From the NCBI GenBank assembly GCA_003052455.1, contig QAPD01000005.1, positions 1 to 45,430 on the forward strand: a stretch of DNA of 45,430 nucleotides. The letters are read 5' to 3'. The notes under the pieces were generated by a model. That model worked only from the letters and a program-made list of their open reading frames with translations. It was not told the DNA's origin and made no database searches. Numbering within the stretch: the first letter of the stretch is position 1; every line of letters starts with the position of its first letter. This document shows, one piece after another, positions 930-41,768 of this stretch. Origin of the DNA: Sphaerisporangium cinnabarinum. Its GTDB lineage: Bacteria > Actinomycetota > Actinomycetes > Actinomycetales > Cellulomonadaceae. The position numbers and the translations under genes were made by a program.

Positions 930-1814
930 TCAGCCCGGCGTGAGCGCTCCGGTGACCAGGTCGACGAGCGCGCGGGCCGTCGTCGGCCCGCCGTGGTCCG
1001 GGTTGAACTCCACCAGGGTGACCGCGACGAGGTCCGGGTCCGAGACGACCTCCCGCACGACGCGCTCCAGCTCGGCGGGCACGAGCCCGCGTCCGAAGAC
1101 GGGCACGTCCGCGGCGGGCAGCGCGAAGAAGTCGAGGACGTCCACGTCCACGTGGAGGACGAACGGCCCGCTGCCCACCCCGTCCACGGCGCGACGTGCC
1201 GCCGCCTCCGGGCCCGCGGACACCTCGGCGGCGGTGAGCCGGGTGGCGACGACGCGGCCGTCCTCGTCCTCCTCGGCGTCGGAGAAGCCGAGGAACGCGA
1301 GCCGCCGCGCGTCCAGGAGCGGCCGCCGCGCCCCGACGGCGGCCAGCTCCGGGCTCGCGCCCGGGAGGTCGAGGAGGTGCGCGACGCCCGTCGCGTCGGC
1401 GATCGGCTCCTCGGGGTGCGACGCGACCGTGAAGAGGTCCTGACCGCCGTCGACGTAGACGAGCCCGACCTCGTCGTGCACGTCCACCGCCGCGGCGACG
1501 ACACCGAGCGTCACGGTGCACTCGCCGCCGAGCACGAGCGGCACACGACCCGCTCGGAGCTCGCGCCCCACCGCCTCGCGGACGCGACCGACGCCCCCGG
1601 CGACGCGCTCGACGTCGTTCAGGCGCCCGGGCTCGTGGTGCGCGCGCCAGCGGGCCGTCTCGACGTCGCCCTGGTCGACGACCGCGAGCCCGCGCCCCCG
1701 CAGCGCGTCCAGGAGACCGGCCGCCCGCAGCGCCGACGGTGCCTTCTCGAGACCGGGGCCGTGGGCCGCCGCGCTCGACGGGACGCCCAGGACCGACCAC
1801 GACCGCTGTGTCAT
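930..1814 (-). CDS. Arginase/agmatinase-family protein with altered metal site
   Basis: A 294-residue ureohydrolase-fold protein. The family blocks are visible but degenerate. The usual GGDHS is GGECT (96-100), so the first metal-ligand His is Cys99. The usual DAHxD is DGGQD (122-126), so its His is Gly124. HVDVDVLD (221-228) keeps the Asp pair. Classical arginases bind two Mn2+ through six ligands, and here two are not His. It may be an arginase-like hydrolase with one metal or another substrate, or non-catalytic. The ATG lies 7 nt after a TAGCGT hexamer with no ribosome binding site, so it is probably leaderless. No arginine catabolic genes are adjacent. Confidence 0.75.
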   Translation of the reverse strand: MTQRSWSVLGVPSSAAAHGPGLEKAPSALRAAGLLDALRGRGLAVVDQGDVETARWRAHHEPGRLNDVERVAGGVGRVREAVGRELRAGRVPLVLGGECTVTLGVVAAAVDVHDEVGLVYVDGGQDLFTVASHPEEPIADATGVAHLLDLPGASPELAAVGARRPLLDARRLAFLGFSDAEEDEDGRVVATRLTAAEVSAGPEAAARRAVDGVGSGPFVLHVDVDVLDFFALPAADVPVFGRGLVPAELERVVREVVSDPDLVAVTLVEFNPDHGGPTTARALVDLVTGALTPG

Positions 1815-1821
1815 ACGGCCG

Positions 1822-1827
1822 ACGCTA
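1822..1827 (-). promoter_or_regulatory. -10 element TAGCGT, probable leaderless promoter of the arginase-like gene
   Basis: TAGCGT on the minus strand fits the actinobacterial TAnnnT -10 consensus and is followed after 7 nt by the ATG. No Shine-Dalgarno sequence lies between, so transcription would start at or next to the start codon. Confidence 0.5.
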
Positions 1828-1876
1828 CGCCGCGCCCCCGACACCGGCCCCGCGCACGACCTGCCCGGGAAAACGG

Positions 1877-1916
1877 CGACGGCGCGCCCACCCCGGCCGG
1901 GGTGGGCGCGCCGTCG
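1877..1916 (-). terminator. Intrinsic terminator of acnA (perfect 40-bp palindrome)
   Basis: The two 20-base halves are exactly complementary and very GC-rich. The hairpin begins 14 nt past the acnA stop on the minus strand. It is followed by a short TTTT tract at 1873-1870, as expected of an intrinsic terminator for transcripts leaving acnA. Confidence 0.8.
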
Positions 1917-1930
1917 AGGTCGCGTCGTCG

Positions 1931-4753
<2,823 letters not shown>

Positions 4754-4911
4754 TCGTAGCTCCTTCGTGGCGAGACGGTGGCACGGATGCCATGGTTCAG
4801 GGGGCTTCGCCCAGACTACGCCGGGCCGGTGCGCCGCTCCGTCCGCGTCCCGGAGGACGGGCGGGGCGGTGGCCGGCGGCTCGTCCACGACCCGCGACCT
4901 GCACCGCGACC

Positions 4912-4938
4912 AGCATACCCCATATATCTTGACGTCAA
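4912..4938 (-). promoter_or_regulatory. Probable acnA promoter
   Basis: On the minus strand TTGACG (4938-4933) and TATGCT (4917-4912) are separated by 15 bp, a slightly short but plausible -35/-10 pair about 160 bp upstream of the acnA start. The -35 hexamer lies in the core of the 34-bp palindrome, so a protein bound there would block RNA polymerase. Confidence 0.55.
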
Positions 4939-4950
4939 GATATATGGGGT
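4917..4950. promoter_or_regulatory. 34-bp perfect palindrome, probable MarR-family (TamR-like) operator for acnA
   Basis: Every base from 4917 to 4950 pairs with its mirror position; the centre is ATCTTGACGTCAAGAT. The tract is AT-rich in a roughly 74% GC neighbourhood. The centre resembles MarR-family operators. In Streptomyces coelicolor the MarR protein TamR is reported to control aconitase together with trans-aconitate methyltransferase, making a TamR-like regulator the leading candidate. No MarR gene lies in this window, so the regulator would act in trans. A terminator for the small gene just upstream is less likely because no T-tract follows. Confidence 0.65.
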
Positions 4951-4960
4951 CGGCGACGGC

Positions 4961-5194
4961 TCAGAGGTCGCAGTCGCACAGGACGTTGAGCTCGACGACC
5001 TGCTCCCCCTCGTCGGGCCGCGCCCACGCCTCCGCCTCCGCGCGCGACGCGAAGCTCCGGCCCGCGAGCCGCCCGTTCGGCATCAGGACGCCCACGCCGA
5101 CGACGTCCCGGACGTCGCCCGGGTCACCGGCGGTCCTGTCCTCGCTCGCCGCCGGGACGTCCGCCCGGGTCCCCGTCCCCGTCGTGCCCGTCAT
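4961..5194 (-). CDS. Small conserved-looking hypothetical protein (CDCDL tail)
   Basis: A 77-residue protein. The N-terminal 30 residues are low-complexity (Thr, Gly, Asp). The C-terminal half (DVVGVGVLMPNGRLAGRSFA and the following acidic helix) looks folded, and the protein ends NVLCDCDL. The terminal Cys-Asp-Cys could bind metal. I recognise this only as an actinobacterial hypothetical, with no known function. No good ribosome binding site precedes the ATG, so the true start could be internal. It lies upstream of acnA on the same strand, separated from it by the palindrome. Confidence 0.5.
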   Translation of the reverse strand: MTGTTGTGTRADVPAASEDRTAGDPGDVRDVVGVGVLMPNGRLAGRSFASRAEAEAWARPDEGEQVVELNVLCDCDL

Positions 5195-5279
5195 GCACGC
5201 ACCACCGTCCCGTCGTCGCAGGGTTCTCCCCTCATCATGCGCCCTCCGCGGCCCGGACCGCGTCCACGCCGGCGCGCGG

Positions 5280-6660
5280 TCAGCGCGTGAGGACGGCGAC
5301 CGCCTCGAGGTGGTGCGTCATGGGGAAGAGGTCGAACGCGCGCAGCGACGCGAGCCCGTAGCCGTGCTCCGCGAGGTACGACACGTCGCGGGCGAGCGCG
5401 GCCGGGTCGCACGCGACGTAGACGACGCGCGAGGGCTGCCGGGCCGCCACGGCCTCCACGACGGCACGCCCGGCGCCGACGCGGGGCGGGTCGAGCACGA
5501 CGACGTCCGCCCCGCTCCCGTCCTGCGCGAGCACCTGCTCGACCGGCCCGTGCCGCAGCTCGACCCGGTCGAGCCCGTGCGCGTTGCGCCGGGCGTCGCG
5601 CACGGCGCGCTCGTCGCCCTCGACGGCGAGGACCGTGCCGTCGTCCCCCACCGCGGCCGCGAGCGGTGACGTGAACAGCCCGGCCCCGGAGTAGAGGTCG
5701 AGCACGCGCGCGCCGTCGACGTCGCCGACGCCGTCGAGCACCGCGCGCGTCAGCGTCGCGGGCGCCTCCCGGTGGACCTGCCAGAACCCGTCGGCGGCGA
5801 CCCGGTACGTGTGCTCCCGGTCGCCGAGCACGACCCGCTCGGTGACGCTGCGCCGTGCGTTGGGCCGGTGGTCGGGCCCCCCCGCGCCAGGGCTCGCCGT
5901 CGACGAGGAGGACCGGCGCGGACCCGACGGGCGCGACGAGCTCGATCCGGGTGCCCGGGCGCCACGTGCGGGTGAAGACCTTCTCGTGCGCCGCGAGGTC
6001 GGCGACGTCCTCGCTCGCGAGCGGCATGGCGTCGAGCGGGAGGACGGTGTGCGAGCGGAAGCGGTGCATGCCGGCGCGCCCGCCGCCGTCGGCCACGAGG
6101 TCGACGCGCGTGCGGTACCCGAGGCCGCCGCGCTCGTCGTCGCCCGGCAGACCCTCGACCTCTACCTGAGGGTGAAGGTCGTCGAGCTCGAGGCGTGCGA
6201 GCCGGCGCAGCTGCTCGGCCAGGACGTCGCGCTTCCACCGCCGCTGCGCGCCCAGGGCGACGTGCGCGAGCTCCCCGCCGCCCACGCCGCCCGGGCCCGC
6301 CTCGGGCCAGACAGACGGCACCCGGTCGGGCGACGCCTCGAGCACCTCGACCGCGTCGGCACGCCAGAACTTGGCCGCGTCGCCGCCCTCGGTGACGCGG
6401 GCGCGCACACGCTCCCCCGGCAGCGCGTGCCGCACGAAGACGACCCGGCCCTCGTGGCGGGCCACGCAGTGGCCGCCGTGCGCGACGGGACCGACCTCGA
6501 GCTCGACCTCGACCTCAGGTCGAGGGAGCGTGCGCGGCGACTGCCGGTTCTGGCGCCCCTGGCGTCGGCCACCGCGTCGCGGCGCGCGCTCGGGACGTCC
6601 GGCGGCGGGGTCGGACGGACGGTCGGAGGGCACGGCGGGACCACGCGAGGAGGACGGCAT
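5280..6660 (-). pseudogene. TRAM-domain class I SAM-dependent RNA (uracil-5) methyltransferase, frameshifted
   Basis: RumA/TrmA-like 5-methyluridine RNA methyltransferase. The first part in one frame has a basic tail and a TRAM domain (VAHGGHCVARHEGRVVFVRH) and runs to GEPWRGG. The Rossmann catalytic part lies in another frame: LDLYSGAGLF (SAM binding), DPPRVGAG, and YVACDPAALARDV with the catalytic Cys. The frames meet at a run of seven C (+ strand 5877-5883). Removing one base restores GGPDHRPNARRSVTERVVLG, exactly joining the two. Intact length would be about 459 residues. The break is a sequencing error or a real mutation. The ATG lies 6 nt after GATACT, suggesting a leaderless start. Confidence 0.85.
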
Positions 6661-40979: not shown

Positions 40980-41768
40980 TCAGGTCTCGCCCGACGACGG
41001 GCGCCCCCGCGCCCGGACGTCGTGGGCCAGGGCGGCTCGCGCCACCCGCGGTGCGGGGGCCGGGACGGAGATCCCGACCGGCACGTTCGTGGTGCACGCG
41101 TGCGCGCCGGTCGCGAGGGTCGCGAGGCGCTGCACGTGCGAGCCGAGCAGCTTGGCGAAGACCTGGGCCTCCGCCTCGCACAGCTGCGGGAACTCCTCGG
41201 CGACGTGCTGCACCGGGCAGTGCCCCTGGCACAGCTGGACGGCGGAGGTGCCGGGCACGGGGCGCACGCTCGCGGCGTAGCCGTCGTCGGCGAGGGCGGC
41301 GGCGAGCTGGGCCGCGCGGCCCTCGACGTCCGGCGCGTCGAGCCGGCCCGCGTAGCGGTCGGCGAGCTCGGACAGCCGGTCCTGGGCGAACCGCTCGACG
41401 GCGTCCGGGCCTGCGACGTCGCGCAGGTACCGCAGCGCCTGGGCGGCGAGGTCGGCGTACGTCCCGCTGAGCTCGCTCTGCCCGGCCGACGTCGTCACGT
41501 ACCGCCGCGCGGGACGGCCGCGCATCCCCGTGGGGTGCCCGGCGTCGTGCACGGCGACGAGGTCGTCCTCCTCGAGGAGGGCGAGGTGGCGGCGCACCGC
41601 GGCGGGCGTGAGGCCCAGCGTCGCGGCGAGGTCGCCGGCGGTGACGGGGCCCGCGCTCGCGACGAGCTCGAGCACGCGCTCGCGCGTGCGCCGGTCGACG
41701 TCGGTCGCGGGCGCGCCGGAGGGGGCGACGGTACGCAGCGCGTCCGGTCGGACCGCACCTGCTCCCAT
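40980..41768 (-). CDS. sufR: Fe-S-sensing transcriptional repressor SufR
   Basis: A 262-residue DeoR/ArsR-like winged-helix regulator. The helix-turn-helix lies at about 40-65 ([20 protein letters not shown]). Cluster-binding cysteines are Cys180, Cys184 and Cys197 (LCQGHCP, FPQLC), with Cys225 downstream. In cyanobacteria and mycobacteria SufR binds an Fe-S cluster and represses suf transcription. It heads the operon and so is autoregulated. ATG 41768 was chosen for GGAGG 5-6 nt upstream; GTG at 41774 would overlap that site. Confidence 0.93.

Follow-up and report, generated by a model that had tools for sequence, protein, structure and literature searches.

A conserved palindrome upstream of acnA as a predicted operator for the MarR-family repressor TamR

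The kind of switch discussed here is already known, from Streptomyces coelicolor. In that organism the MarR-family protein TamR (locus tag SCO3133 in PMC9739823) represses aconitase and answers to both citrate and trans-aconitate, as set out in excerpts of PMC5487221. PMC6391409 describes TamR as responding to citrate and related compounds and not to urate. A further repressor of aconitase, AcnR, binds citrate-Mg2+ according to extracts of PMC4746285. A preliminary description of the present locus had named aconitase as a reported TamR target in S. coelicolor, which the excerpts of PMC5487221 bear out, and had drawn attention to a long palindrome over the acnA promoter. It is this palindrome, and the regulator that may bind it, that we consider here.

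The palindrome and its conserved core

The window, by which we mean the whole 45,430-nucleotide stretch of DNA analysed, contains acnA on the minus strand (1931..4753). The 940-amino-acid product is an aconitate hydratase of the AcnA type by its matches to the NCBIfam profiles PRK09277/TIGR01341 and to Pfam Aconitase and Aconitase_C, and acnA is the predicted regulated gene. Its start codon is a GTG at 4753, preceded by GGAG. The perfect 34-bp palindrome ACCCCATATATCTTGACGTCAAGATATATGGGGT (4917..4950, no strand assigned) lies 163 bases from this GTG, between the acnA start and the stop codon of a small upstream ORF, and a direct check of the sequence confirmed both the coordinates and the 17 of 17 matching base pairs given in the preliminary description. 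The small ORF (4964-5194, minus strand) ends 10 bp short of the palindrome. It has no match in Pfam, and by eye it is absent beside acn in genome G016 (L049).

Among perfect palindromes in the window this one is second in length. The longest is a GC-rich palindrome of 40 bp (1877..1916, minus strand) placed directly behind the acnA stop codon and followed by TTTT. It lies outside the operator and is probably the acnA terminator; a consensus terminator scan of 1500-5300 called none, this palindrome included.

The 34-bp palindrome might be a product of chance. Among 200 simulated first-order Markov sequences matched to the real window in length and composition, the longest perfect arm was 15 bp, reached in a single window, and an arm of 17 bp was not found (0/200). 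In addition, its core is conserved in 17 of 17 genomes of the genus. A chance origin, which the preliminary description had also thought unlikely, thus has a negligible probability.

The conserved element is shorter than the palindrome itself. We compared 17 genomes, including our own (G000), from a genus that is probably Cellulosimicrobium. The 18-bp core TATCTTGACGTCAAGATA (4925..4942, no strand assigned), a predicted TamR site, is present in all 17 as an exact single copy, while the outer arms vary, such that the perfect palindrome is between 18 and 36 bp long, with two genomes in which it reaches 34 bp. Since the core is constant and the arm length variable, the unit under selection is the 18-bp core together with the promoter, and the length of the arms beyond the core is largely a local feature. 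The functional unit of 34 bp proposed earlier therefore has to be replaced by a conserved operator of about 18 bp. A literature search with the letters of the core and its variants gave no match.

Putative promoter elements overlap this region. The hexamer TTGACG, a putative -35 element (4933..4938, minus strand), lies inside the operator, and a putative -10 hexamer TATGCT, read by eye (4912..4917, minus strand), lies at the edge of the palindrome. Both occupy the positions assigned to them previously (4938-4933 and 4917-4912), and the arrangement TTGACG-15-TATGCT is kept in 17/17 genomes of the genus, including the 15-bp spacing. The role of TTGACG as a -35 element is nevertheless uncertain, because a spacer of 15 bp is short for sigma-70, and a sigma-70 consensus scan around acnA using spacers of 16-18 bp called no promoter.

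A sequence of this symmetry could also function as an RNA hairpin, either terminating the small upstream ORF or attenuating acnA. The calculated RNA fold has an energy of -29.4 kcal/mol with a z score of -5.8, far better than shuffled sequences, and the stop codon of the small ORF is just 10 bp away. However, no run of T/U follows the palindrome on either strand, no terminator was called in 1500-5300, and within the genus the stem falls to 18 bp while the 18-mer remains exact. Moreover, the motif recurs ahead of four more genes, and in the class as a whole its distance from acn varies between 22 and 320 bp. We rejected the terminator or attenuator reading on the basis of the stem variation and the terminator scan, and regard it as very unlikely.

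Copies of the core and the TamR-type regulator

A whole-genome exact search with TCTYGAYRTCRAGA found six places in our own genome. They lie before icd, encoding isocitrate dehydrogenase (contig and position C54:38736), before sucC, encoding succinyl-CoA synthetase (C54:51311), before tam, encoding trans-aconitate methyltransferase (C68:33237), before acnA itself (C80:4927), before a marR gene of the tamR type (C84:35512), and inside a coding sequence (C106:8885). Five of the six therefore precede citric-acid-cycle, trans-aconitate or regulator genes. The preliminary description had proposed a scan for copies at tam, tamR, citrate synthase or mdh. The first two share the site, so that second copies near a tam and a marR gene do exist, and the last two are absent among the six exact matches. 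The count of six refers to exact matches; allowing up to one mismatch gives 25 places compared with one for the reversed pattern, the further 19 being outside the gene assignment.

Within the genus, the sites before sucC and upstream of tamR are each present in 17/17 genomes, and that before icd in 15/17 (our own and 14 others), with none in G001 or G006 within three mismatches of the acn core. A further motif hit in G001 was considered as the icd site and rejected, as its location is not at icd. A motif-like site CTCTTGACGTCGAGA(C/G) was seen at G001:C5:88106 (L380), G002:C8:105109 (L381) and G012:C1:1744472 (L382). By eye it lies between a gene for a LacI-type regulator and one resembling those of glycoside hydrolase family 13, the ORFs of L382 being unlisted, and no site of this type was found in our own genome within three mismatches of the acn core.

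The product of tam matches the NCBIfam trans-aconitate 2-methyltransferase models, the best at 296.6 bits, which is under the curated cut-off of 320, and its closest named relatives are four Cellulosimicrobium records. A search with this protein gave 66 loci, 14 of which show a MarR-type ORF close to tam and on the other strand, including loci from Streptomyces brasiliensis, Nocardioides and Catenulispora. The MarR-type ORF adjoins tam in 13 of the 14 and is about 950 bp off in the other (L072). The motif is likewise within 250 bp of tam in 13/14, and in L072 is found by the MarR gene. A fifteenth, weak MarR hit (L113) lies elsewhere, outside the tam neighbourhood. With six weak partial matches set aside from the 66, the site precedes tam in 34 of 52 actinobacterial loci and is missing in 18; it was found in none of eight non-actinobacterial loci, and the reversed control gave 0/52. 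TamR of S. coelicolor reportedly has sites before both tam and tamR. In our own genome tam and tamR are not divergent neighbours, lying on contigs C68 and C84, and we have not taken such a neighbourhood as defining because the regulator, the sites and the targets are all present.

The tamR gene of our genome is located at G000:C84:34993-35490 on the minus strand (L005:1342-1839:-), with the motif directly before its ATG. Its product matches Pfam MarR_2 with 57.2 bits and MarR with 45 bits. It is 57-68% identical to the 14 tam-linked MarR proteins by BLAST and 59-68% in full-length alignment, while the next paralog in our genome (L011) is 40-45% identical to them. This comparison covered 30 of 49 MarR-type matches (MarR_2, E <= 0.001), and ortholog status is judged against the 14 tam-linked proteins. 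With TamR as the query there is a single match in our genome at E <= 1e-30, and each of the 17 genus genomes has a tamR ortholog. Among solved chains the best matches, 8ylh (E = 5.7e-33) and 8ylf (2.1e-31), are labelled simply as MarR-type regulatory proteins, and 2fbk, which we take to be HucR, matches at E = 1.7e-9.

The tamR promoter region (L005/L242) has a -10-like TACCCT about 7 nt before the ATG, and this position suggests that the tamR transcript is leaderless. The window itself contains a weaker MarR_2-type match of 33.6 bits (41544-41678, minus strand; L023), which is not the TamR gene. When the 30 MarR_2 loci were scanned for the motif allowing up to four mismatches, matches were found in four, L005, L016, L027 and L033. 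Those in L016 and L033 looked like chance occurrences, and that in L027 precedes a solute-binding-protein-like gene. The near-match TTTCTTGACATCAAGCGT at about 1896-1913 of L027 (G000:C103:22954), flanked by an ORF resembling winged-helix regulators and a gene resembling those for solute-binding lipoproteins, is possibly an extra or unrelated site.

Regulator and site across the Actinomycetes

A sample of 118 genomes was drawn evenly from the class Actinomycetes. We found acn in 113, using the best match alone where a genome gave several, and read 111 upstream stretches, leaving out five genomes without an acn match, our own genome, and G029, where the match was a contig-end fragment. Two stretches shortened by contig ends were kept (L186, 260 bp; L196, 346 bp). 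A genome was scored as TamR+ if it had a match of at least 156 bits, each TamR+ genome having one. Below this the highest score was 145 bits, and the cut was chosen after the list had been seen. On this basis a TamR ortholog is present in 73/118 genomes, including our own, distributed over 20 of 34 families. Absence of TamR was judged on 31 scored candidates per genome and that of AcnR on 27, and so the absences are not absolute.

An acn site was defined as a sequence with no more than two mismatches from ATCTYGAYRTCRAGAT within 700 bp. Such a site is present in 72/72 TamR+ genomes compared with 1/39 TamR- genomes, and the reversed motif in 0/111. With one mismatch allowed the values are 63/72 and 1/39 (control 0), and with three they are 72/72 and 2/39 (control 2). 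Conservation upstream of acnA, to which the preliminary description had looked, thus extends to all 72 further genomes with TamR in the class sample. Nine of the 16 motif positions show no variation over the 73 acn sites. The sole TamR- genome with a site, G035, has, on the contig with acn and divergent from it, a TamR-like gene scoring 127.5 bits; G035 is counted as TamR- in this tally and as TamR+ in that for sucC and icd. As the genomes are related, Fisher values overstate the association of TamR with the site, and three families of mixed content provide a better control. The site was found in 5/5 genomes with TamR and 0/3 without in family f25, in 4/4 and 0/1 in f28, and in 1/1 and 0/1 in f31.

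We have considered whether the site is used by a different MarR-type protein, such as a PecS-type paralog, or by another regulator altogether. There is no lack of MarR-type candidates in our genome, with its 49 MarR_2-type matches and L011 as one clear paralog. Yet the site accompanies the high-scoring TamR ortholog in 72/72 genomes, and is absent at acn in G108, where there is a lower-scoring paralog alone (137.8 bits). Among the 30 loci scanned, moreover, only L005 has a good motif right before its own MarR gene. We therefore consider another regulator unlikely, and prefer TamR.

The remaining targets were surveyed in 30 genomes, 11 of which gave no icd match of the type searched. In the 400 bp read upstream, the site was found before sucC in 1/20 TamR+ and 0/10 TamR- genomes, and before icd in 2/16 and 0/3 respectively; it is absent upstream of sucC in L271 and of icd in L304. 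As these sites are rare outside the genus, we rejected sucC and icd as class-wide targets. With sites rare at sucC and icd, and present at 34 of 52 tam loci, it follows that acn is the fixed target while the others come and go.

AcnR-type genes were found in 21/118 genomes (E <= 1e-25), and TamR in none of these; for three of the 21, all from family f14, there was no acn match. In family f7 a TetR-type gene follows acn in 8/8 sampled genomes, all of them without TamR, and encodes a protein that matches AcnR of solved structure (4af5 and 4ac6, E about 1e-61). No AcnR was found in our own genome at E <= 1e-25 among 27 of 42 candidates scored, nor beside acn, and the next gene after acnA is of the arginase family, in agreement with the earlier observation that no acnR follows it. 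TamR and AcnR were never found together in the sample, and it would thus seem that citrate-linked aconitase control has been solved in two unrelated ways. We lean towards the general proposal that in the Actinomycetes aconitase is under one of two unrelated citrate-responsive repressors, either TamR (a MarR protein with a near-invariant acn operator) or AcnR (a TetR protein), the two being mutually exclusive, with the TamR-acn core fixed and icd, sucCD and tam gained or lost by lineage.

Neither regulator was found in 24 of the 118 genomes. Nine of these belong to family f19 (for example G050 and G065), where no TamR, AcnR or acn site was found, and there may be a third mode of aconitase control in this family.

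The proposed switch and its described relatives

We have high confidence, based on sequence, that the palindrome is a predicted TamR operator, at which the repressor would block the acnA promoter until released by citrate or trans-aconitate. Our own data provide the site and its conservation, the motif shared by five genes, a TamR ortholog, and the joint occurrence of TamR and the acn site. From these we infer binding by TamR as a dimer and occlusion of the promoter, and the ligand response in this lineage is proposed by analogy with S. coelicolor TamR. The repressor, encoded elsewhere in the genome, would bind the 18-bp core, which overlaps the putative -35 element and the spacer of the acnA promoter, and so exclude RNA polymerase. 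With promoter elements read by eye, the dimer would cover the -35/spacer in the case of acnA, tamR and icd, and in that of sucC the start region. If citrate or trans-aconitate accumulated, for instance where oxidants damage the iron-sulphur cluster of aconitase, the ligand would lower the affinity of TamR, and transcription of acnA would set in, along with that of the other genes that have the site, tam, icd, sucC and tamR. The TamR-like control put forward as plausible in the preliminary description is supported, at the level of predicted sites, by the copies at tam, tamR, icd and sucC and by the 72/72 acn sites in genomes with TamR.

The analysis extends a circuit from one Streptomyces species to 20/34 families of the class sample, supplies a searchable operator motif, and points to succinyl-CoA synthetase and isocitrate dehydrogenase as predicted targets in our own genus. 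It also gives an example, open to testing, in which two unrelated repressors serve a single purpose, namely citrate-linked aconitase control. In the open-licence PMC literature we found no account of TamR extended across the actinobacteria or opposed to AcnR, which is weak evidence of absence, and looking for TamR together with isocitrate dehydrogenase brought up unrelated papers. The class-wide co-occurrence of TamR and site, the exclusion of TamR and AcnR, and sucC as a target may thus be new.

Three described systems can be compared with this locus. Regulators of the PecS/HucR group are MarR proteins related in sequence to our TamR, but they respond to urate or xanthine and are linked to pecM or uricase, according to PMC5487221 and PMC6391409. 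AcnR of Corynebacterium glutamicum is like the proposed TamR switch in being a citrate-binding repressor of aconitase (PMC4746285, in extract), but it is a TetR-family protein unrelated to the MarR-type TamR, and was not found in our genome. The third is TamR (SCO3133) of S. coelicolor, which in the excerpts of PMC5487221 is a MarR-type regulator tied to aconitase and citric-acid-cycle genes. Our system differs from it in that tamR is not beside tam, and in having sucC as a predicted target.
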